Translations under genes and position numbers: made by a program | Notes under the pieces: model-generated | The model's database searches: none | Seen by the model: the letters and a program-made list of their open reading frames with translations, nothing else | What the model was told of the DNA's origin: nothing | Shown: positions 35 through 57,700 of the stretch, in pieces | Layout: every line of letters starts with the position of its first letter | How positions within the stretch are numbered: the stretch's first letter is position 1 | Source: a virus | Length of the DNA stretch: 64,000 nucleotides | Strand: one strand, 5' to 3' | Virus record (IMG/VR): IMGVR_UViG_3300028827_000129 | Span: 62,001-126,000 of that record

Positions 35-574
35 TTACCTTTCTGTCAAGAATTCCATAATCCAGTTAAAATGTTGTTTAATGCCAAGATTCCATACATC
101 AATCCCAAGATATTTTGCTACCTTTATTGCAAATCCAGTTCCTCCGGTTTCATGCCCCCATGGAGTCCAGCATATTACCATACTACTTTTTTTGTTTAAA
201 TCCTTCCCAAGCAATTGGTTTATGTTTCTACTCATAAGGGCATGATACTTTGGATTTGAAAAAATCGCGGGGGGATTAGGATGAAACCGTGAAATCATTT
301 CATCTGCAAACTCACTTGGAAACTCTGGTACTATATATCCTTTATATACATTAGCTATTCTTTCATTATAACCATTCCATGGCAGATATATTTCTTTTTT
401 ATTCTCCCCATCTATACATCCTTTTTCAAATGCTGTATCTGCCCCTATAGCTCCTCCTGATCTTAACATTAAACCTTTTTTTGACAATTTGTATCCCAAT
501 TGATACATCATTTTTAATATTTCCTTTGGAGTTTGTCTTGAACCTATACCAGTATAAGCATTAACACGATCCAC
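35..574 (-). CDS. SLOG/DprA-like Rossmann-fold protein
   Basis: The 179-residue product has TGIGSR near residues 8-13 and LRSGGAIGAD near 37-46. This is the nucleotide-binding loop pattern of the SLOG superfamily (DprA/Smf, LOG, TIR-associated SLOG). A Gly-rich segment with HETGGTG follows near the C-terminus. A GGAGG lies 8 bases before a GTG at 574, and that GGAGG would fall inside the coding region if the upstream ATG at 589 were used, so GTG is preferred. The gene overlaps the end of the gene upstream by 14 bases. Free-standing phage members are usually described as DprA-like; whether this one binds DNA, a nucleotide signal or neither is not shown by sequence. The family call is good and the role is unknown. 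Confidence 0.7.
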   Translation of the reverse strand: MDRVNAYTGIGSRQTPKEILKMMYQLGYKLSKKGLMLRSGGAIGADTAFEKGCIDGENKKEIYLPWNGYNERIANVYKGYIVPEFPSEFADEMISRFHPNPPAIFSNPKYHALMSRNINQLLGKDLNKKSSMVICWTPWGHETGGTGFAIKVAKYLGIDVWNLGIKQHFNWIMEFLTER

Positions 575-773
575 AACATTTACCTCCATTTAATTTTCTT
601 ACTGCAACAGCTTCCTCTTTTGTGGGAGGCTTTCCAAGATCTACAAGTTCTTCAGCGTTTCTCTTTGCTTCTTCCATATCATTAGCATATACAGTGTATG
701 TATGATCTTCGATAGCGATTGTATCAGCATCGAGAAAAACTTGTTTTCTTATAACAATGTCAAATGCAGGCAT
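561..773 (-). CDS. Small hypothetical protein, Cys-rich C-terminus
   Basis: A 70-residue product preceded by AAGGAG six bases before the ATG. It looks like a beta-strand-rich N-terminal half followed by a helix, and ends in a short Gly/Cys tail (GGKCCGSC) that could bind metal. I do not recognise the family. It overlaps the SLOG-like gene by 14 bases, which suggests translational coupling, so the two probably work or are at least expressed together. Confidence 0.65.
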   Translation of the reverse strand: MPAFDIVIRKQVFLDADTIAIEDHTYTVYANDMEEAKRNAEELVDLGKPPTKEEAVAVRKLNGGKCCGSC

Positions 774-3093: not shown

Positions 3094-3576
3094 TCAAAAT
3101 AAGTTTATTTGAATATTTTCTTTCTCTTTAAGTTCTTTTCTTACTTTCATAAGAATTTTACCCAAATAATTATACTTTTTCTTATTAATACATTTACTAC
3201 AAAGACAAGCGCCCCAATAATTATCGTGCCAATAATTACCTCCTATCAGAAGGTTTTCGCCTGTCATTAAAAGGTCTCTCTTGAGTGCTTTATGATTTAT
3301 TACTGATTTTGAAGTAAATTTTAACCGTACTAACTCCGTCATAATGCGGAGTTTATTTGCATTAAAGTCTTCTCTCATAATTACATATCGCCCGCGTTTT
3401 TTAGCCATTGCAGGCGTAACACAGCGCCGAATCTCACGCTTTTCTTTTTCATGCTTACACTTCATTGCCTGGTAAGCATGCTCTACAGTCTGCCATACAA
3501 GACCGTCATATATCAATCCTTTGCATTCAGCAAAGTTTGAGAGAAAGAAATATTTGCCTCTGAAAAAGCGTATCAT
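3094..3576 (-). CDS. NADAR-family protein (YbiA-like, DUF1768)
   Basis: The 160-residue length and motif order match the NADAR/YbiA family: FFRGKYFFLSNF (4-15), VEHAYQAMK (31-39), TGENLL (105-110), HDNYWG (117-122) and LGKILMKVR (138-146). Family members hydrolyse N-glycosidic bonds; some remove ADP-ribose from DNA guanine as antitoxins of DarT1-type toxins, while YbiA acts on riboflavin intermediates. The family assignment comes from sequence. A counter-defence role against DNA ADP-ribosylation is inference. A Cys-rich insertion (CLCSKC, 124-129) follows HDNYWG and is an oddity. AAGGAGG precedes the ATG, and the conserved block at 3591-3625 lies immediately upstream. Confidence 0.88.
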   Translation of the reverse strand: MIRFFRGKYFFLSNFAECKGLIYDGLVWQTVEHAYQAMKCKHEKEKREIRRCVTPAMAKKRGRYVIMREDFNANKLRIMTELVRLKFTSKSVINHKALKRDLLMTGENLLIGGNYWHDNYWGACLCSKCINKKKYNYLGKILMKVRKELKEKENIQINLF

Positions 3577-3590
3577 AAAGACCTCCTTCG

Positions 3591-3625
3591 AATTTTCGGC
3601 TTTTTTTGAAAAAAACTTACACTAT
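3591..3625 (+). promoter_or_regulatory. Conserved block shared with 19481-19514 (promoter or terminator-like)
   Basis: The block reads TTTTCGGC, a T-run, GA7, then CTTACACTAT. An almost identical block is found at 19481-19514. On the + strand TTCGGC and TTACACTAT are spaced (17-18 bases) like -35 and -10 elements feeding the structured element at 3631-3735. On the minus strand the same bases form a T-run/A-run hairpin and lie in the leader of the NADAR gene. The direction of action is not settled by sequence. Confidence 0.5.
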
Positions 3626-3630
3626 CCTGT

Positions 3631-3735
3631 AAGGAGTGAGTGAATGAAATTTTCTAGCATTGAAGTCAAGAACGTTTTAAGAAACTTCGGTTCTTAAAAC
3701 GCAAAGACGGAAATGCAAAAGAAAATTTCATTCAC
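3631..3735 (+). ncRNA. Nested-stem structured RNA element, copy 1
   Basis: Three perfect stems nest inside each other. P1 is 15 bp (3640-3654 with 3721-3735), P2 is GCATT/AATGC (3657-3661 with 3712-3716), and P3 is 11 bp (3673-3683 with 3691-3701) capped by ACTTCGG. They are separated by purine-rich internal loops containing AAGAACG and AAGACG. No gene uses this stretch. The second locus at 19515-19628 has the same upstream block and the same layout with different stem sequences. It could be a free small RNA on the + strand, where no sense gene follows, or a minus-strand leader of the NADAR gene. Function unknown. Confidence 0.5.
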
Positions 3736-3744
3736 GGCATTCAT

Positions 3745-11480: not shown

Positions 11481-11516
11481 ACCCTTTAAAAGGGTTGTTT
11501 GTCCTTTAATAAGGAC
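11481..11516 (-). promoter_or_regulatory. Two leader hairpins before 90-residue gene
   Basis: ACCCTT/AAGGGT (11481-11495) and GTCCTT-TAAT-AAGGAC (11501-11516) stand one after another upstream of the AAGGAGG of the 11190-11462 gene. Confidence 0.5.
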
Positions 11517-11524
11517 TTTCTTTA

Positions 11525-11566
11525 GTCTTTTACGACTCCTCCTTAGAGGAGGTAGTCGTAAAAGAC
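11525..11566 (-). other. Long hairpin overlapping a stop codon
   Basis: GTCTTTTACGACT pairs with AGTCGTAAAAGAC, extended by CCTCC/GGAGG past a single bulged base. The 3' half includes the last codons and the stop of the 11543-12325 gene. There is no T-run after it on the minus strand, so it looks more like an mRNA-end or processing hairpin than an intrinsic terminator. Confidence 0.6.
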
Positions 11567-12325
11567 GAAGTAGGGCAGCTTGTCAAGTCGCCTCTTTCCC
11601 CCATCGGCGTACCCGACGATGGGGTATTCCGCCTCCTGGGCGTGGCCACCAAAGTATTCCCTGGTGACCAGGTGCCCAGACCAGGTATTATCCCCGTCAT
11701 ACCTGATCCGGAGGCGGAAGAGCTCCTCGTGCTGCGGCTTGTACAGCCGCTTTGCAATGAGCTCGACCTCCTCCCATTTCTTTTCCCCCTCCTCGTCGGA
11801 GAGGTTCCCTCCGAGGATGCCCTCCAGGATCTCTTCGATGAGACCCTTGACCCGGGCCATCGCCTCGGGAGTGTCCCACTCCCCTTCAGCGATGCCCAGC
11901 GAGGGCACCTCATCGAGGGAGATGACGTCACTCCCGCAGTCACGCGGGGTGACGTCCCCGAACCTCTCGACCTCGATGAGGTCGGGTTCCTCCCTCTTGT
12001 AGAGGAACTCTTTTTTGGGGTGGTCCTGGCGGAAGATCCGCTGGACCTCCCTGTCGGAGGAGACGAGGATCTCCCAGTCCTCGTCCCTGGGGTCAATAAT
12101 GACCGCCCTTCCGAGGATGCGGGAGATGGCCCTAACGGCCTTGATCTCCTCCTCCTTTCCAACCCGGAAGTCGAAAACGACCGGGTTGTGAGGGCTATCC
12201 TCGCCGAAGTACTCGGCGAGGTACCCCTCCGCCTCTTGAATGCCGAAGAGCTCATAGAGCTCCTCGGCCTTTGCCCGACTAACATGTCGGGACGCCTCGT
12301 GGATCGCCATTTCAAACTTTTCCAT
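11543..12325 (-). CDS. Hypothetical 260-residue protein from GC-rich block
   Basis: The start at 12325 (MEKFEMAIHEAS) follows AAAGGAGGATAGCC. The protein is acidic and mostly helical with an alpha/beta middle (RAVIIDPRDEDWEILVSSD). No catalytic motif recognised. Codons are strongly GC-ending, unlike the AT-rich genes at 0-8 kb, which also opens a 238-residue shadow frame on the opposite strand. It is flanked by hairpins at 11525-11566 and 12351-12365. Confidence 0.65.
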   Translation of the reverse strand: MEKFEMAIHEASRHVSRAKAEELYELFGIQEAEGYLAEYFGEDSPHNPVVFDFRVGKEEEIKAVRAISRILGRAVIIDPRDEDWEILVSSDREVQRIFRQDHPKKEFLYKREEPDLIEVERFGDVTPRDCGSDVISLDEVPSLGIAEGEWDTPEAMARVKGLIEEILEGILGGNLSDEEGEKKWEEVELIAKRLYKPQHEELFRLRIRYDGDNTWSGHLVTREYFGGHAQEAEYPIVGYADGGKRRLDKLPYFVFYDYLL

Positions 12326-12350
12326 GGCTATCCTCCTTTCCCTTTGTTTT

Positions 12351-12387
12351 GCCGGTGAAACCGGCGTCTTTAGGCCTTGTAGAGGCC
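12351..12387 (-). promoter_or_regulatory. Two leader hairpins before 260-residue gene
   Basis: GCCGGT-GAA-ACCGGC (12351-12365) and GGCCT/AGGCC (12373-12387) lie between the 51-residue gene and the Shine-Dalgarno of the 11543-12325 gene. The second overlaps the end of the upstream coding region. Confidence 0.5.
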
Positions 12388-12525
12388 CTTTACCCGCCAA
12401 ATGCGGGTATTGATCCTCTTAATGAGGATCTTTTCCCCCTTCTGACGGGGGTCATGGGAGGCCGTAGCCTCCCCCTTTTCGCGGGAGATCCACCTCCCGC
12501 CAATACGACAGGACCGGGCCTTCAT
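12370..12525 (-). CDS. 51-residue basic protein
   Basis: Its ATG at 12525 shares one base with the stop of the upstream gene (TAATG) and is preceded by GGGAGG. The product is highly basic (MKARSCRIGGRWISREKG to EKILIKRINTRIWRVKG) with a strand-like C-terminal half. It is probably a nucleic-acid-binding small protein; no family recognised. The tight coupling to the 60-residue gene supports it. Confidence 0.55.
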   Translation of the reverse strand: MKARSCRIGGRWISREKGEATASHDPRQKGEKILIKRINTRIWRVKGLYKA

Positions 12526-12707
12526 TAGAAGCCCTCCCGGTCCTTTTCGCCCTGAAGAATCAGGGCGGTGAGGTCGTGGATGTTGGGGCCGCGGTCCCCC
12601 TTCATCCACATCTCGTACTGGGAAATCCAGTACTTCCTTTCGCCGCTCTTGAAGCGGTCCTTTCCGTACTCGCTGAGTACGGTTTTGAGAAATCTCTTTT
12701 TCGTCAT
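12525..12707 (-). CDS. 60-residue hypothetical protein
   Basis: AAGGAGAGAGAAG precedes the ATG. The product (MTKKRFLKTVLSEYGKDRF to HDLTALILQGEKDREGF) is charged and helical with an aromatic middle (KYWISQYEMW). No family recognised. It ends in the TAATG overlap with the next gene. A 5-bp hairpin (12737-12750) lies upstream of its ribosome binding site. Confidence 0.6.
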   Translation of the reverse strand: MTKKRFLKTVLSEYGKDRFKSGERKYWISQYEMWMKGDRGPNIHDLTALILQGEKDREGF

Positions 12708-12736
12708 CTTCTCTCTCCTTTCCTTCCTTTCCTTTT

Positions 12737-12750
12737 CCCGCTCTAGCGGG
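12737..12750 (-). promoter_or_regulatory. Leader hairpin CCCGC/GCGGG
   Basis: A 5-bp GC stem with loop TCTA that overlaps the stop codon of the 12743-12898 gene and precedes a purine-rich leader with AAGGAG for the 12525-12707 gene. Confidence 0.45.
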
Positions 12751-12898
12751 TGCTGTTGGTCAGAGTGACCATGTTCTGACCAACCTTTGCCCAGTCACTT
12801 TCAAACTGGGCTTTGGCGGCGTCGAACAGGCGACATCCGCCGTAAATCATGACAACCATCGCCACGGCGATGGCGATGGCCGTCTTCTTCACAGTCAT
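12743..12898 (-). CDS. 51-residue putative lipoprotein
   Basis: ATG at 12898, stop TAG at 12743-12745. The N-terminus is a signal peptide (MTVKKTAIAIAVAMVVMIY) ending in a lipobox-like YGGC, so Cys22 would be lipidated after cleavage. The mature part is about 30 residues. Its size and design resemble outer-membrane spanin subunits (Rz1-type), but the Pro-rich character of Rz1 is missing. The Shine-Dalgarno is weak (GAAGAAG). The spanin role is a guess. Confidence 0.5.
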   Translation of the reverse strand: MTVKKTAIAIAVAMVVMIYGGCRLFDAAKAQFESDWAKVGQNMVTLTNSTR

Positions 12899-12937
12899 CT
12901 TCTTCTTCGTGGTCTTCTTGATCGTCTTCTTTGTGGT

Positions 12938-13882
12938 CTACTTCTTCGCCGTGGTCTTCTTGGCCTTCTTCGCGGCCTTGAAGGCCGCGGCCATCGGGCC
13001 GCGGCCCTTAGCCGCGATGGCCCCGGCCGGTTTGGCCGGGGCCTTTTTGGCCATGACCCAGGCCACGGCCTCGACCACGAGCCGAGGCAACGGCTCGTGG
13101 CCGGAGAGGGCCTTCCTGGCCCCCTCCAAGGCCCTGACGTCGTGCCGCCAGAGGCGGCCGACGCCAAGGCCCTTCATGGCCTGGCGCTGGGCCTCCTTGG
13201 AGGCCCGGCGGGTTTCCTGCAGCCGGGCCTCCTTCTTCTTGAGGGAGGCCTCCTCCTCCAGGAGGCCCTCCATGGCCTCCTGGAGGTCCTCAAGGAGACC
13301 CAGGGCATCCGCCCCGGCCTCCCCGGCCTCCCGGATCTCGGCGATGGCCTTCCAGCCCTCGCCGAGGAGCCGGCGGATGTACCGCCGCCGGCGGCTGACC
13401 TCCTTCAGCCGCTTTCCGGCGACGTAACCGCGCCAGTAGGCGCGGTCCACCGACTCAAACCACGTCGCCGGCCTTTCGGCCAGCGACGTGATGTCAATGA
13501 GGGCCTTCTGGGTCTTCCTGGCCCAGAAGGCCTTCTCCTCGCCCCTCTTGAGGGCGAGGAGAAGGGCCCTCTCCTCCCGGTTAAGGGAGGAGAGGGCCTC
13601 CCTGAAGGCCTTCTCGCCCTTCTTGATGGCCGCCTCAAGGGCGGCCTCCTCCTCAGCGGACCGCTGAGGAGGAACGACCTTCTCCCCCTCCTCCTTCATC
13701 CGCACCTTCTCGGTACGGATAAAAGACTTCGGCCGCGGCTTGTAGGCCTCGGCCTTCTTGGCCTCGGCCTTGGCCTTCCTGGCCGAGGCCTCGGCTTTGC
13801 GGGCCTCGGCCCTCCTGGCCGAGGCCTCTTCCTTTGCCTGCTCCAGGAGCAGGCGCACATCGTAGAGGTCCATGGTCTTCAT
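12938..13882 (-). CDS. Ala/Lys/Glu-rich coiled-coil protein with histone-H1-like tail
   Basis: A 314-residue product with AAGGAGGAGCC before the ATG. Residues about 10-50 are a long A/K/E/R helix, the middle is helical with LLALKRGEEKAF and RAYWRGYVAGKRL, and the last 35 residues are Ala/Lys/Pro-rich (KKAPAKPAG to KKAKKTTAKK), like bacterial histone-H1-type tails. DNA condensation or nucleoid binding is possible but inferred from composition alone. It is extremely GC-rich, and a 270-residue antisense frame is a by-product of that. Its ATG overlaps the stop of a 42-residue gene upstream. Confidence 0.65.
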   Translation of the reverse strand: MKTMDLYDVRLLLEQAKEEASARRAEARKAEASARKAKAEAKKAEAYKPRPKSFIRTEKVRMKEEGEKVVPPQRSAEEEAALEAAIKKGEKAFREALSSLNREERALLLALKRGEEKAFWARKTQKALIDITSLAERPATWFESVDRAYWRGYVAGKRLKEVSRRRRYIRRLLGEGWKAIAEIREAGEAGADALGLLEDLQEAMEGLLEEEASLKKKEARLQETRRASKEAQRQAMKGLGVGRLWRHDVRALEGARKALSGHEPLPRLVVEAVAWVMAKKAPAKPAGAIAAKGRGPMAAAFKAAKKAKKTTAKK

Positions 13883-14007
13883 GGCTCCTCCTTAAGCCCT
13901 ATCACGTAGCCAGGCAACGTCAAAGACGCCGTCCATGGCTTACGTTTCCCAGCGGTCGGGCTAAGCCGCTGGGCTCTTTCGGGCCTTATCGGCCCTTTTT
14001 CTGGCAT
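13879..14007 (-). CDS. Possible 42-residue protein coupled to next gene
   Basis: ATG at 14007 and stop TGA overlapping the next ATG as ATGA. The product is Pro/Arg/Lys-rich (MPEKGPIRPERAQRL to LKEEP). There is only a weak Shine-Dalgarno. Part of it covers two GC hairpins (GGGCC/GGCCC and CCCAGCGG/CCGCTGGG), so it may instead be a structured leader. The exact ATGA overlap is the main support. Confidence 0.35.
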   Translation of the reverse strand: MPEKGPIRPERAQRLSPTAGKRKPWTASLTLPGYVIGLKEEP

Positions 14008-14019
14008 CGTCTCAAGGAC

Positions 14020-14128
14020 GTGCCAAAGAATCCCTCCTACAAAAGCAGAAGAGATTCTTTGGCACCCCGAATCACTTCAGGGATGCCGTGTGGGGGCGGG
14101 CCGTACAGCATCGGGGCGGCCCGCCCCC
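14020..14128 (-). other. Two long inverted repeats after 112-residue gene
   Basis: GTGCCAAAGAATC pairs with GATTCTTTGGCAC (14020-14032 with 14053-14065, 13 bp, 20-base loop). GGGGGCGGGCC pairs with GGCCCGCCCCC (14092-14102 with 14118-14128, 11 bp, 15-base loop). Both lie past the stop of the 14149-14487 gene on the leftward transcript and lack a T-run. The larger loops distinguish them from the compact leader hairpins. Confidence 0.7.
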
Positions 14129-14148
14129 GGAGGTCCTCCGGTACCTGG

Positions 14149-14487
14149 CTATGCAGCCAGATACCGAAGGATCCGATCATCGTCGTCCTGGCAGCCCACC
14201 AGGACAACGAGTCGCCTGAGAGCGCAATAGCGCTCTCCAGACAACTGCAGATGCTCCCGAAGGAGCACCTTGAACCTCCTGATGTCGCCGCCGCAGTATG
14301 CGGCGGCCCGGAGGGCCATCAGTTCCTCCGGGCTCCTGGCCATGTCCGGATCCAGGGTTGCGAGGCCCTGGAGGACCGCCAAAACCATCTCCTCGAAGGA
14401 GACGACCACCTTCTCCTTCTGCGCCTCGGCCTTCTTGGCCGCCCTCCTGGCGGCCTTTTTCAGTTTCTTCTTTTCACGCTTTTTCAT
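14149..14487 (-). CDS. Helical protein, paralogue of 10449-10685
   Basis: A 112-residue product with AAAGGAGAGAG before the ATG. A very basic N-terminal 27 residues (MKKREKKKLKKAARRAAKKA) precedes the shared helical domain with TLDPD, AAAYCGGDIRRFKVLL and SGERYCALRRLVVLVG, aligned to the 78-residue protein at 10449-10685. The extra basic extension suggests nucleic-acid contact by this copy. Function unknown. It is the first gene of the leftward GC-rich unit, and the hairpin-dense region lies upstream. Confidence 0.65.
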   Translation of the reverse strand: MKKREKKKLKKAARRAAKKAEAQKEKVVVSFEEMVLAVLQGLATLDPDMARSPEELMALRAAAYCGGDIRRFKVLLREHLQLSGERYCALRRLVVLVGCQDDDDRILRYLAA

Positions 14488-14519
14488 GACGGTTCTCTCT
14501 CCTTTCTGGGCCTTTTTAT

Positions 14520-15060
14520 GACCTGCCCAGGTCTGATTATGGGGGTAAAACCCCCTCTATATACCCGATTGCTCGGGCATATAGAGGGGGCCTCTGCCAG
14601 AGCCAGAGGCCACATACGGTGGGTGCCTAGGCATACTAGGATATGCCCACTATGCCCCATCATGGGGCGTGGCATGGTCTCTGGCAGAGGCCCACCAGCC
14701 CAGGGATCGATGGACATCCACTCCCTGGGCATGGGGCGGGATATTTATCGCTACGCGCCTCCTTCTCCAGACACATACTCACCTCTAATCATGGCTCGTT
14801 AGAGCCATTGGGCTTTCGTGCCTATGGAGATTTTTCCGCCACAGGCGCGTGCCACCACCCGGGGATGCAGATGCCTGCAGAGCCCCGGGCTGCCAGGTAG
14901 CAGCTCGGTGGACTTGTACGCGATGCACGTGGCATCACTGGGGCGCTGGCAGTCCCCTCCTCCAGGAGCTGGGGTTACGATGGGTGGGGTAGAGAGGCTG
15001 GAGAACCTCTCTGAGACCCCCCGGGCTCGTAACTGCCCTTTAGCTCCCTTTGGAGCCTCA
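14520..15060. other. Gene-free, GC-rich, hairpin-dense region
   Basis: No convincing gene. Stems include a 12-bp plus 5-bp hairpin (14551-14590), a 15-bp pair 14588-14602 with 14679-14693 enclosing smaller stems, GCCCAGGGA/TCCCTGGGC (14698-14730), ATGGCTC/GAGCCAT (about 14791-14808), CCCGGGG/CCCCGGG (about 14858-14888) with an inner TGCAG/CTGCA, GATGC/GCATC (about 14922-14936), and AGAGAGG/CCTCTCT (about 14991-15011). Some pairings are mutually exclusive. It lies exactly where leftward and rightward transcription diverge, so it may be a leader RNA, an origin or a control region. Confidence 0.6.
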
Positions 15061-18749: not shown

Positions 18750-19325
18750 TTAGATGATCTCATGAATAATGCCGCGATTTAAAGCTTCCCATGCAGTGAA
18801 CCAAAATTCTTTGCCCGACTTAATATAACTTAATTCCTCGTTAGAAAAATAATCACCGAAAAAATCATGAAGCCGCGCTTCTGTATTTGTTCTCAAAATA
18901 TCTATACATGACGTATGATGACTGATTTGATCTTGCCCCAGCGAAGTAGAAGCCTCATGTAACATGAAAGTAGAATACTTATAAGCCTTACGTGTCTTAC
19001 CAAGCATAAGAATATAAAGCCCGGCAGATAAACAATTGCCGCTTGCAACAGTTGTAAAATTATCAATTTCTCCTACTAGACCCTCTAAGAGGTCTAGTGC
19101 TGCTAAATCACCACCTGATGTCGTAATGTTTAAAATAACTTCATCATCACTATGTGCATCTTGTAAGATCTTCGTAACGTCAAGTATATTCTTTCTGTTT
19201 ACCTCGCCGCTAAAGAAAACTTCGTACCTCGTTTTCAGCGGCGTAACCTTTCCGAAAACTTCCTCGCCCCCCGCTTCCTCGCGGGGGTCTTCATCTTCTT
19301 CCAACCTAATACGGGGTAAAGTCAT
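18750..19325 (-). CDS. ClpP-like serine protease
   Basis: A 191-residue product near ClpP length. ITTSGGD (67-73) matches the ClpP oxyanion-strand region, GNCLSAG (96-102) carries the nucleophile Ser100, and MLHEAS (121-126) the catalytic His123. FWFTAWEALNRGII matches the C-terminal ClpP motif, but Glu173 stands where the catalytic Asp is usual. It could be a peptidase working with a host or phage unfoldase, or a head-processing enzyme, though the head block has its own protease. CAGGAGG precedes the ATG. It leads the operon from the promoter at 19358-19386. Confidence 0.85.
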   Translation of the reverse strand: MTLPRIRLEEDEDPREEAGGEEVFGKVTPLKTRYEVFFSGEVNRKNILDVTKILQDAHSDDEVILNITTSGGDLAALDLLEGLVGEIDNFTTVASGNCLSAGLYILMLGKTRKAYKYSTFMLHEASTSLGQDQISHHTSCIDILRTNTEARLHDFFGDYFSNEELSYIKSGKEFWFTAWEALNRGIIHEII

Positions 19326-19357: not shown

Positions 19358-19386
19358 ATTATACCACAGCGCAGCGCCATAAACAA
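19358..19386 (-). promoter_or_regulatory. Sigma70-type promoter for ClpP operon
   Basis: On the minus strand TTGTTT (19386-19381) and TATAAT (19363-19358) are separated by 17 bases. Transcription would begin near 19351 and read the ClpP-like gene leftwards to the terminator at 16721-16746. A 9-bp inverted repeat (19368-19376 with 19390-19398) overlaps the promoter and could be an operator. Confidence 0.7.
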
Positions 19387-19480: not shown

Positions 19481-19514
19481 TTTTCGGCTTTTTCCGAAAA
19501 AAAACTTACACTAT
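19481..19514 (+). promoter_or_regulatory. Conserved block shared with 3591-3625
   Basis: TTTTCGGC, a T-run, CCGA8, then CTTACACTAT repeats the block at 3591-3625 almost base for base. As at the first locus it directly precedes a nested-stem element. It may be a phage-specific promoter (TTCGGC, 18 bases, TACACT) or, read on the minus strand, a CGG/CCG hairpin with T-runs. Confidence 0.5.
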
Positions 19515-19628
19515 ACGTTGACAAACGTAAAGGCGAGGAAAAGAACGGATAAAGCTTACGGTTAATATAAAACATGGTAATGTTCTTATATTTAAGCTTT
19601 AGACGTTCTTTGACGAGACTTTACGTTT
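19515..19628 (+). ncRNA. Nested-stem structured RNA element, copy 2
   Basis: Four stems nest: AAACGTAAAG/CTTTACGTTT (19523-19532 with 19619-19628), AAGAACG/CGTTCTT (19541-19547 with 19604-19610), AAAGCTTA/TAAGCTTT (19551-19558 with 19593-19600), and ATATAAAACAT/ATGTT-TTATAT (19565-19575 with 19580-19591, one bulged base). The overall layout, including AAGAACG placed before the inner stem, parallels 3631-3735 although the stem sequences differ. No gene lies here. This supports a structured RNA rather than a conserved protein or protein-binding site. Confidence 0.52.
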
Positions 19629-19650
19629 ATTAAAAATAATAAAACCATAA

Positions 19651-19931
19651 ATATCTCTCCCTTAAGGGGAGAGATATAAAACATAACCGTAAATATATAT
19701 ATAAAGCATAAATATATATATAAAACACACATAGGGATACGTTACTTAATATACCTTTAAGGTATATTAAGTAACGTATCCCGTATATAAAACATAAAAC
19801 ATAAAGGCCATAAGATATTCTTTAGAATATCTTATGGCCGTACCTAGGATATAAGATACTCTTTAATAGAGTATCTTATATCCGTAAAACATAAAAAACA
19901 TAGTAATAGAAAGTCGTCTTAAAAAGACGAC
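19651..19931. repeat. Array of perfect hairpins on A-rich linkers
   Basis: In order: an 11-bp stem (19651-19661 with 19667-19677), a 22-bp stem (19734-19755 with 19761-19782), a 15-bp stem (19806-19820 with 19825-19839), a 16-bp stem (19847-19862 with 19868-19883) and an 8-bp stem (19913-19920 with 19924-19931). All are perfect, with 3-6 base loops mostly of TTAA/TTTAA type, and unrelated stem sequences. Linkers repeat CCGTA, TATAAAACATAAA and AAATATATATATA. No gene. It may be a processed small-RNA precursor or an origin. Confidence 0.8.
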
Positions 19932-19942
19932 GATAAAAAGAG

Positions 19943-19970
19943 AAAAAAATAAGGCCCCCTGCCGGGGGCC
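19943..19970 (-). terminator. Intrinsic terminator
   Basis: GGCCCCC-TGCC-GGGGGCC (19953-19970), followed on the minus strand by TTATTTTTTT. It lies about 40 bases past the stop of the 20008-20310 gene and ends that leftward transcript. Confidence 0.85.
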
Positions 19971-49800: not shown

Positions 49801-50395
49801 ATTTGGCATTAGCTCTGCATCAAGAGAAGATGATTTATATTATGCATTACCAAGGATTGATAAAAAATTCTTTGAATTTTTTATCAATGCGGAAGGGGAA
49901 GAACGCGAGGAGATCAGTAATTTAGTTTCTCCCATGATAGCTAGGGCCTATAATATATTTTGGGCAAAGCATGATGGAAAATCTTCGTATATTCCGGCAT
50001 TTACAGCATCTGACGTAGAAGAATATTTGGAAGATAAACCGATTCCTGGACCTAATTGGATAGGCTGGGACAGTGATGTAGATTTAGAAGATATAAAACT
50101 AAAGCTTCTAGAAAGAAATTTTGAAGATTTTACGGAGTATGACATTTGGGGGGACCAGATTAGAGCATCTAAAAGGAAGCCTTATTTAGAAAGGGCTTTA
50201 GATGAGTTTAATGTCAAGAGGTCGAAAGCAGAAGTAAAGAAGCAAATAGAACAAATGTTATATGGCAATGGTTTAGAAAATGTAGAAGTTTTAGTCGATG
50301 ATTATACTGGGGAAAATGTTATATTTTTTGAAGGGAAGGATTCTCAAGAAAAGTACCTGAGATCGCAGATGAGAGATATGGGATTTTTTAGTTAA
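46850..50395 (+). CDS. Giant virion protein 1 (tape-measure slot)
   Basis: A 1181-residue product. It has at least three hydrophobic Gly/Ala-rich segments (near 345-360, 405-425 and 470-490, for example YYGAAIGAIAAAPFALGAALA), a basic region (GRKPVQQRKEEY), and a large soluble C-terminal half with PSWLPGDDYMVNFHTGNPY. It lacks the long repeated helices of a classic tape measure. With its partner at 50398 it may serve as a two-part tape measure or as injected channel proteins. No family named. Confidence 0.6.
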   Translation: MPQPTPLIPVDPEERKKKGMPWGAATTAALIAGHDLIEIPLIKRWFSARSGIRSSRLTYLNLGLFIAPNQRPAGIQSFRDLTGRSEALVKDVIYEGIRRLEETPTRIFRTFELSSLFSTIVFRDTSGAVARFSGEEALKLRKYVTRLAGRDIGVEEIAGGMRVIKGSLYGVNVNGEIGKEPLVKFVTFMQRKWTPYHEKIKGARQERLSHYSKLAKEYEAMIAGEDFGRIAAHRGESDFLLLVGGRNRSESSMRTINAFLRVQSKKFFHLLDDPFEALQEITGVVSKRLGRGSRLWEKIGIRGKLGLAGDYSGSLAEMWARWLLPGKGKMGWRLGAIGSFVALPFIYKIAEAHLKVPNTILEEGPTAALATLYAKGDILRGQVSEALGIQSFIEKQEELAPGSTKGIMSYLAFPASFAMTGAVASGALTMTHRLSKGMLGAREEAQALRRLSGPLGKLIKKSLPRAHRWAYYGAAIGAIAAAPFALGAALATVFGRKPVQQRKEEYAGIREIPIRKGRWWEAGRTPYEGGRILTYAPHFVVRARTHAKEKALYGEYWDKPITRLFKSIVDPYWLERMHNEDRPYPIWGPSDPGLGFLGTIWQHTLGALFKPPVYVNQDKYITESGEYIDRDTNLKYEPSYRLGGELPDMPEPKTGWKYALSEIKRRLADTFGLTGFALESVEEKMTGSTDLFEDKRFLASSAELDSTAADFWGLHLGGGLTTTEALRRIYFKERPNIEVVNPAENNMPSWLPGDDYMVNFHTGNPYTKIPMGEYVLPGPAYEELHPELKGVPYEDYPLIHKLNILKNVAVYSKEFTEYAKTAKRIIAEGKEDQAYIEQLNSILEQAAQMKKLEVQEIPDDNIISSYWSLLNESAANPTEYLTPIAPIHKFVHTMGPIDTYRDTQILSSEVTLWNKPYEHFIKPAIRHLFGVAYDDYVPKEVRERQNLSDYFEALKYIKYKNLLNIAKERGLPSYLYERRVKSNLFGISSASREDDLYYALPRIDKKFFEFFINAEGEEREEISNLVSPMIARAYNIFWAKHDGKSSYIPAFTASDVEEYLEDKPIPGPNWIGWDSDVDLEDIKLKLLERNFEDFTEYDIWGDQIRASKRKPYLERALDEFNVKRSKAEVKKQIEQMLYGNGLENVEVLVDDYTGENVIFFEGKDSQEKYLRSQMRDMGFFS

Positions 50396-54789: not shown

Positions 54790-57700
54790 TAACTACTTCA
54801 AAATAAACGATATTGAATTAGCAGTTTCACCGTCCAATATTCGTGTAGATAAAAGTACAAAGAATATAAAAATTCCCATTGTACGCGAGTCAGAAGCGGT
54901 AAAGAACCGTAGTGGACACGGTGACATAAACGTGTCTTTTGATGTAATATTTTCATACAACGAAAATATTACATCATCATCTAAACATAATGACATCAAG
55001 AATGACTTATTGAAGATAGTAGCTCAGCTACAGTTAACTCCATTTTTCATAGTAGAAAATGAATTTGTTACTAAATCTATAAAGCCAGAGTACCAAGATT
55101 CAGAGCCTTTAATGTTGGTGCTCAATAATATGTCTATCTCTACTTCTCCTGAGTTACACAATTCCATCATTGCCCAATTTAATTGTTTTTATGTAGAGCA
55201 TTCTGCATTTACTCCATTTTTGTTTTTCAAAAGAACGGAGACATCTGGGGCGGATGAGAAGCCAGTAAAAATCAGCGAAAGTGGGGCATGGAAGGCATTT
55301 TACAAACCGTATTGGGATCGATTGAGAAGTATGGCTCCGTCATCCTTTAATGGGAGTTGTCATTTTCTTTTTCCTGTATTAATAAACGAGGATGGTAATG
55401 TAACTTTTGGCACAACAGGGTTTGATATCGATGGGACACAGGTCCCGGTGTCTGTTACTGTGAATTTCTATAATCGCCTAGCAGTAATGCCTTTTATAGG
55501 TCTTGAATATCCAGCTTATCAGTACATGGGTGGATCAGATAGAGAGGTTTTTATAACAATTGAAGATGTTAGTGGGCGAGACCAAAAGTTTAAAGACTTG
55601 CTTAAGTTGTTACAGCATTTTAATCAACTTGCTATAAATGATAGACAAACAGCTGGCAATGATGCAATAGTTGTAAAAAATGATATTCTAAATATGCTTG
55701 GAATAGAAGAGGTTATTTGTGAAAGCGTTTCAGTAGAGACTCATCCGTCTGAACCAGAGACTTCAATCATTAATTTACATTTATTGTCTCATAACATAGA
55801 TAAAGTAAAAGAAGCAGAAAGTCTCGAACGCGAAGAATATAATACTGTTGAGTCATTAGTTGAAGAGATTATAGATAACTTCATTAATTATACAGACGCA
55901 TCTATTGTAAGGCGTAAAGTGACAGATTCTGTATATGATGATACGTTTTTGTTAAATTATGATTTTGAAAGAAGTGTTTTTGTGATGACATCTGGCATAC
56001 CAGATTTGCCAGCTCCATTAGACTCATTATTTGAAGATTTTAAGAAGACTTTATCAAACATATATTCAGGATCTATAGTTTATAAATTGCGTGATGATTT
56101 TTATGATTTTATGAATCATGTTGACGACGCTGTTTTTGGGATTAAGACTAAATTAGGCGTTGGTCCTTCTATTTATAAAAATAAAGATAATGAAGCAAAT
56201 AGTGCGGCAAGACGTGTTCTTACTGATTTTGCCTTTAAGGCATTTCATGTTTTGAAGGATTACCCAGATGCTTATCCTGAAATGAAAATTATAGCAGAGA
56301 AAGTCGACTATGAACTGAAGCATGGGATGAGAAAAAATGTCCAGCCGTGCTATCCTGATATAGTCCCAGATGATATCAATAAAAACCCAGACGATTACTT
56401 TTTTTACAGTGGTTCGCTGAAAGAAATAATTAAAGAAGCGAAATTGTTTGGTGCAGATGCTATTTCTAAAACATTTGATGCAGTTGAAGACTTTACTGAC
56501 AAGAATGGCATCCACTGGGATTTTTCTGGTCTTTCTAGTGGTGACAAGGCGTCGATTAATAATATTAAGAGTTCATTAAGCGGCGATGGCGTAACAATTA
56601 CAGATGGTAGGCCGGCTGAATTTATTTCTAAGCATAAGAATCAGGGTAGATTTACAAAAACTTCCATTGTCGATAAGGAGTTATTCCTTGACGGCTATAA
56701 TGACACATCTATGTCATTAAAAGCTGAAATGAATGCTACCCATCGATTCGATAAGGCTTCATTTAAATCACAGTTTGAATTAATTGATTTCCCGGATGAT
56801 TTTATGACCTTTAGAAAGGCATACCCAACATTTCGTTTATATTTTATTGAAGAATATTCTCAAAAAACAAGAATGCGTAAATTAGACGATAAGTTTGTCT
56901 ATAGAGCAATAAAAGAAATTAGAGTTATAAGATCTAGGAAAAACCCGATAGATACTGCAATTATCCAATTGAGTAATGTAGATGGATCATTTTATATTAG
57001 AAATTTTAAGCGCAATGACCTAAAGGGTACATATGCAAAAGAGCTTGTCCGTGGGAAATATGACTATAGAGGGCATGACGTTTATTCATCCGACAATAAA
57101 AAAGACAATTTATTAGATGAAAAGCCTATCTTCCAAGAGGGTTCTGTAATCCAGATACGATTGGGATATGATAACAACCCAGATAAATTGACTACGGTTT
57201 TAAATGGCAAAATAACAGAAATAGACGGTGACGGGTTTGGTATTATTACGATTGTTGTTCAAAGTTTTGGGTATGAACTCTTGGAAGATACTTGGGGGAC
57301 TCCTGGCGATGGCATGAGTCTTGGCGGATGGTTTAATAATACAACTCCTTCTATTATCACGGAGATTTTGAGCAGTCCTTCTATTACACACTTTGGCAGG
57401 TGGACTTATGGATATACTAAAGAAGTAGATCCTGATGAAATTGAGCGTAAAGCAAGGCATTCTATGTTGCCGAACTTTATCGTAAGGCATATTTACAGAT
57501 GGATCGATACGCCCAAGGATGACAATATCTTCGCTCCTTATGAAAGCTTTTATCGTAAGTATATAGAAGATTTTGCTATATTGCGTGGTTGGAAAGATTA
57601 TTATTCATATGGATATACAACTTGGGATATATTGAAAGACATGGAGCGTAGGTGGCCTGGGTATGTATGTCAGCCAGTACCTTATGAAAACAGAATGACA

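Follow-up and report, generated by a model that had tools for sequence, protein, structure and literature searches.

Two loci of an uncultured large phage carry the same short sequence block directly in front of a long, rod-shaped hairpin. They lie in a window of 64,000 nucleotides, which is positions 62001-126000 of a virus record of 170,083 bases. The arrangement supports a shared control element in front of two structured, probably rightward RNAs, and, judged from its sequence, each locus is a good candidate for a new phage RNA. The best explanation that we can offer, tentatively and at a little below even probability, is that both loci specify rightward non-coding rod-shaped RNAs, for which the block would be a private promoter-like start element on the plus strand. 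If true, this would give a well-defined case, open to testing, of dedicated non-coding RNA that a phage makes counter to the direction of the surrounding genes. To our knowledge, only a small number of free structured RNAs have been described from large phages, and most of them were found through covariation in big families.

The block is located at 3593-3625 (TTTTCGGCTTTTTTTGAAAAAAACTTACACTAT) and at 19481-19514 (TTTTCGGCTTTTTCCGAAAAAAAACTTACACTAT), both on the plus strand, and 31 of the 34 aligned columns are identical. The local alignment score between the copies is 51, while the same query reaches at most 30 elsewhere in the record. The similarity is thus far above chance, and the sharing of a block by two distant loci, reported in an earlier note on this DNA, is confirmed. 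An exact 17-mer common to both copies ranks third in length among the distant repeats of the window, and AAAAAACTTACACTAT occurs in only two copies, both on the plus strand, in all 170,083 bases. With its identical 54-base ends, the record is most likely circular and complete, so absence from it is meaningful. In the block, a T/A-tract spacer 15-16 bases long separates the TTTTCGGC box from the CTTACACTAT that follows, and the similarity between the loci stops exactly at the final T of CTTACACTAT. No further sites above the reversed control were found by a degenerate record-wide scan for TTTTCGGC-N14-19-CTTACACTAT.

Several known types of control element were compared with the block. It is absent from the sigma-70 promoter-like sites found (TTGACA/TATAAT hexamers, 16-18 bases apart). 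It is not an intrinsic terminator, where a G+C stem is followed by a T-run, as the order is T-tract, stem, A-tract on both strands and the block is not among the terminator-like sites listed. A T7-type single-subunit promoter was considered for the likeness to CACTAT, and no such polymerase was found among the long proteins scanned. In favour of a promoter for a phage sigma factor, the phage has a protein with a weak match to sigma-70 region 4 (L119:10500-11339, E 1.5e-4, below the Pfam cut-off), and phage sigmas with odd bipartite promoters exist. The sigma of phage 7-11 uses the bipartite promoter GTAAtg-16-aCTA, present in eight copies that all precede late genes (PMC8948821). The block resembles these promoters in having two boxes about one spacer apart, a downstream box containing ACTA and a sigma-region-4-like protein in the phage; however, it has no GTAATG box, and neither of its two copies precedes a sense gene. 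As a member of a phage-sigma promoter set, a motif found before several transcription units, the block was rejected, given its two copies and a degenerate scan at control level. The lack of further copies, which would be odd for a phage sigma promoter, weakens this general reading.

Rod 1 (3634-3742, plus strand) has helices of 5/16/5/3/11 bp, purine-rich internal loops and a cUUCGg terminal loop, and the hairpin at this locus folds with -52.2 kcal/mol (z -6.83). Rod 2 (19518-19633, plus strand) has helices of 4/10/8/9/7/5 bp, a purine-rich 7x7 loop, a GA/GA tandem mismatch and a GGUA terminal loop, with -49.4 kcal/mol (z -8.79) for the hairpin at locus 2. The outermost helix begins 9 bases past the block at locus 1 and 4 at locus 2; the main helices, of 16 and 10 bp, begin 15 and 9 bases past it. 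Nested stems behind each block had been described before, and the strong hairpins stand while the helix lengths given for them had to be corrected to those above. Outside the G+C-rich 11.5-14.7 kb, the strongest 150-nt windows of the record are the two rods, the hairpin array behind rod 2 and a site at G000:22041. A third rod without a block was seen at G000:22110-22171 (L115:2110-2171), where an 11-bp helix, a GTA/GTA loop, a 13-bp helix and a GTTA loop adjoin a two-way terminator hairpin. At window positions 11500-14700 the G+C content rises to as much as 62%, against about 37%, and this G+C-rich island contains numerous strong hairpins and open frames on both strands. Perfect hairpins of 13-15 bp are also present within long late ORFs (window 54940-54976, L118:6138-6173 and window 49856-49888), which is unusual for coding sequence.

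That the two rods form one RNA family is not supported. Their alignment score of 18 is reached by 132 of 500 shuffles and their helices do not correspond, which lends no support to the covariation of stems suggested by the earlier note. Nor is the kept layout supported that had also been claimed: the helices differ, and AAGAACG lies in an internal loop apart from two stem bases at locus 1 (3668-3674) but wholly within a stem at locus 2. What the two rods do share is an extended, unbranched form with internal loops of purines, rather than a common layout.

The unpaired bases differ in composition between the strands. On the plus strand 24 of 29 unpaired bases in rod 1 and 20 of 26 in rod 2 are purines, whereas in the minus-strand folds no more than 4 of 24 and 5 of 24 are. 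The pooled plus-strand count, 44/55, has by our own arithmetic a probability of about 1e-5 against an expectation of one half. In the array, 71% of the unpaired bases on the plus strand are purines, mostly A. Purine-rich loops are typical of structured RNAs, and the bias therefore favours a rightward RNA. The C(UUCG)G closing loop of rod 1 exists on the plus strand only, and for rod 2 the fold on this strand is the better one by 7 kcal/mol. Minus-strand folds exist too, with -46.4 at locus 1 and -36.2 at locus 2. The strand asymmetry is thus an argument in favour of rightward RNA, short of proof as both strands fold.

Directly behind rod 2 we found a row of five hairpins (19651-19934, plus strand) that the earlier note does not contain. 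They are located at 19651-19677, 19734-19782, 19806-19839, 19847-19883 and 19911-19934. The second has perfect arms of 24 bp and forms a 49-bp palindrome. Another assembly of this phage, L088, is broken two bases from the centre of the palindrome, where an assembler is expected to break. As a protelomerase telomere site the palindrome was rejected, since protelomerase (PF16684) is absent from the record. Hairpins 3 and 4 resemble diverged copies of each other, with three stem differences, at positions 3, 4 and 13, each matched in the opposite arm and none unmatched. This compensation, the only covariation found, shows that pairing has been kept and fits an RNA and a DNA level alike. The hairpins are joined by A-rich linkers (19678-19894, plus strand) in which AAAACATAA stands at 19678, 19789, 19796 and 19886; these are all its plus-strand copies in the window, which has a single minus-strand copy elsewhere. 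A G+C hairpin at 19953-19970 has a TTATTTTTTT tail on the minus strand, where it is a leftward intrinsic terminator, and a weaker ATGTAATTTTT tail on the plus strand, which makes it a candidate for the end of the predicted locus 2 RNA.

Rightward RNAs under the block are favoured because the block is unique and stands directly before both rods, the loops on the plus strand are purine-rich and locus 1 ends in cUUCGg. We infer promoter activity, transcript ends and every function, be it decoy, scaffold or antisense. The block would act as a private plus-strand promoter-like control element, and transcription would begin at the base of the rod, no more than about 15 bases past the block. The product of locus 1 would be a rod of about 110-115 nt. 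The product of locus 2 would be a rod of about 120 nt, most likely running on through the hairpin row to 19953-19970 and then reaching about 440-460 nt. Its recurring U/A-rich loops, AAAACAUAA linkers and variable stems could make this RNA multivalent, and it would most likely titrate or dock a host or phage RNA-binding protein. It can be speculated further, although we consider the full picture improbable, that locus 2 specifies a multivalent RNA of 440-460 nt, built from start element, rod, variable perfect hairpins and constant AAAACAUAA linkers, which together with the locus 1 rod would be an undescribed decoy or scaffold under a promoter that has no other use in this phage. Against the explanation by rightward rods stand a block without sigma-70 consensus, the absence of an intrinsic terminator on the plus strand after either rod, the lack of common sequence between the rods and the weakness of the sigma match; that no relative carrying block or rods was found in the viral and bacterial collections searched also counts against it.

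The genes around both loci all run leftward. The gene direction of the window is leftward to about 20.6 kb and rightward beyond, where the gene block includes the terminase gene. In line with the earlier note, a NADAR-domain gene (3094-3576, minus strand; PF08719, E 3e-22) lies to the left of locus 1, and its start is 17 bases beyond the block, with its Shine-Dalgarno sequence at the left edge of copy 1. Beside locus 2 lies a gene for a ClpP-like protease (18750-19325, minus strand). No sense gene on the plus strand lies directly downstream of either rod, also in agreement with that note. The main rival explanation, which we hold to be unlikely, is a role in leftward mRNA: the rods would be intergenic leader hairpins upstream of NADAR and ClpP (a processing or RNase III site, a stabiliser or an attenuator), and the block, ATAGTGTAAG-T7/8-...-GCCGAAAA in this direction, would be their U-tract part. 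The gene direction and the short distance to the NADAR start agree with such leaders, as do the minus-strand folds of both rods and several array hairpins that resemble leftward terminators. A weak 6-bp hairpin, CTTACA/TGTAAG, directly before T7 on the minus strand also fits; however, it is present at locus 1 only. Moreover, ClpP has a separate leftward promoter-like sequence, TGTGGTATAAT, near 19360-19375, and between this and block copy 2 stands a terminator-like hairpin at 19450-19429. The T-tract, stem and A-tract of the block are the inverse of an intrinsic terminator, and the loops on the minus strand are pyrimidine-rich.

A role at the DNA level has in our view a rather low probability; the loci would then be sites prone to form hairpins, at which replication starts, single strands are primed, recombination occurs or a DNA-binding protein attaches. 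The cumulative GC skew is lowest at about 20 kb, where the array behind locus 2 lies near the switch in gene direction, and the array stems are almost perfect palindromes of up to 24 bp, which template switching could also keep perfect. However, the skew seems to follow gene direction, as the positive skew at 14-16 kb accompanies plus-strand genes at 15.6-16.7 kb within the leftward arm. Locus 1 is 16 kb from the switch, there are no iterons, the record contains no protelomerase, and a DNA-level role gives no reason for the purine bias of the unpaired bases. More doubtful still, and indeed quite improbable, is a reading of the block as a duplicated promoter or operator unrelated to the hairpins, which would then be accidental or relic palindromes. 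The rods are non-homologous, strong hairpins are abundant elsewhere in the phage, and terminase relatives at 41-44% identity are without them in the stretches examined, all of which such a reading would accommodate. It does not account well for hairpins with z -6.8 and -8.8 directly behind both of only two block copies in 170 kb, for a loop composition that is consistent in strand or for the compensated changes in the array.

Among known systems, CUUCGG hairpins are common in phage intergenic RNA, as in T4 and phage 7-11 (PMC8948821). Rod 1 resembles these in its cUUCGg end and its position between phage genes, but it is opposite in strand to the surrounding genes, long and interrupted by purine internal loops, and the loop of rod 2 is GGUA. 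GOLLD, ROOL and OLE are large structured orphan non-coding RNAs of bacteria and phages (PMC12286853); the rods are likewise candidates for orphan structured non-coding RNAs, although much smaller, unbranched and without any Rfam match. The array recalls yet another type. RNAs of the CsrB/RsmZ type titrate proteins through multiple hairpins, with GGA motifs in several of the loops. The array is similarly made up of hairpins in a row, in which loop and linker motifs recur; however, its stems are variable and nearly perfect and its loops are U/A-rich and contain no GGA, so by the GGA-loop criterion a CsrB/RsmZ-like titrating RNA was rejected.

In Rfam 15, the window had no match at the gathering threshold, and the matches at relaxed E-values were far below it, many of them to microRNA models with long hairpins. 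An exact 16-mer of the block occurs in 83 stretches of viral contigs, none with the same flanks plus a rod behind, and only chance matches came from looser block patterns, two of them run against viral contigs and one against bacterial genomes. At close range, a search with the terminase found only an identical assembly of this phage, and the next best terminases share 41-44% identity. In the stretches examined from 79 distant terminase relatives (33-44% identity) there was neither the block nor a row of perfect hairpins. Bacterial genomes yielded no terminase relatives and the ClpP-like protein no relative, while NADAR as query found 25 relatives with 34-48% identity. The block is absent from the 92 kb examined of Moorella phage MTATph1 (record 85000-176639, about half). 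The strong hairpins of this phage at L121:34.6-36 kb, and those at L163:51-700, were rejected as relatives, as they partly overlap annotated or apparent small ORFs. By these comparisons, the phage is isolated among the collections searched. L163, a distant relative (terminase 35%), has a 35-base direct repeat of its own at 77-111 and 504-538, upstream of the first late gene; behind each copy stand strong hairpins, which overlap with small leftward ORFs.

The phage also encodes a 520-aa reverse transcriptase (G000:27649-29211; L115:7649-9211, minus strand), the C-terminal half of which matches retron RT type II-A (E 3.8e-28). The approximately 240 residues ahead of this half have no Pfam match, and hairpin-rich non-coding DNA lies directly upstream of the gene. 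Thus, the phage may carry a retron-like unit around this gene. The rods were rejected as its non-coding RNA, as the reverse transcriptase is at least 36 kb from both loci and not adjacent to either. Finally, several NAD-linked functions and a DprA-like protein are found together in this one phage, with the DprA-like protein at window positions 35-589, NADAR at 3094-3576 and a nicotinate phosphoribosyltransferase at G000:36644-37981.
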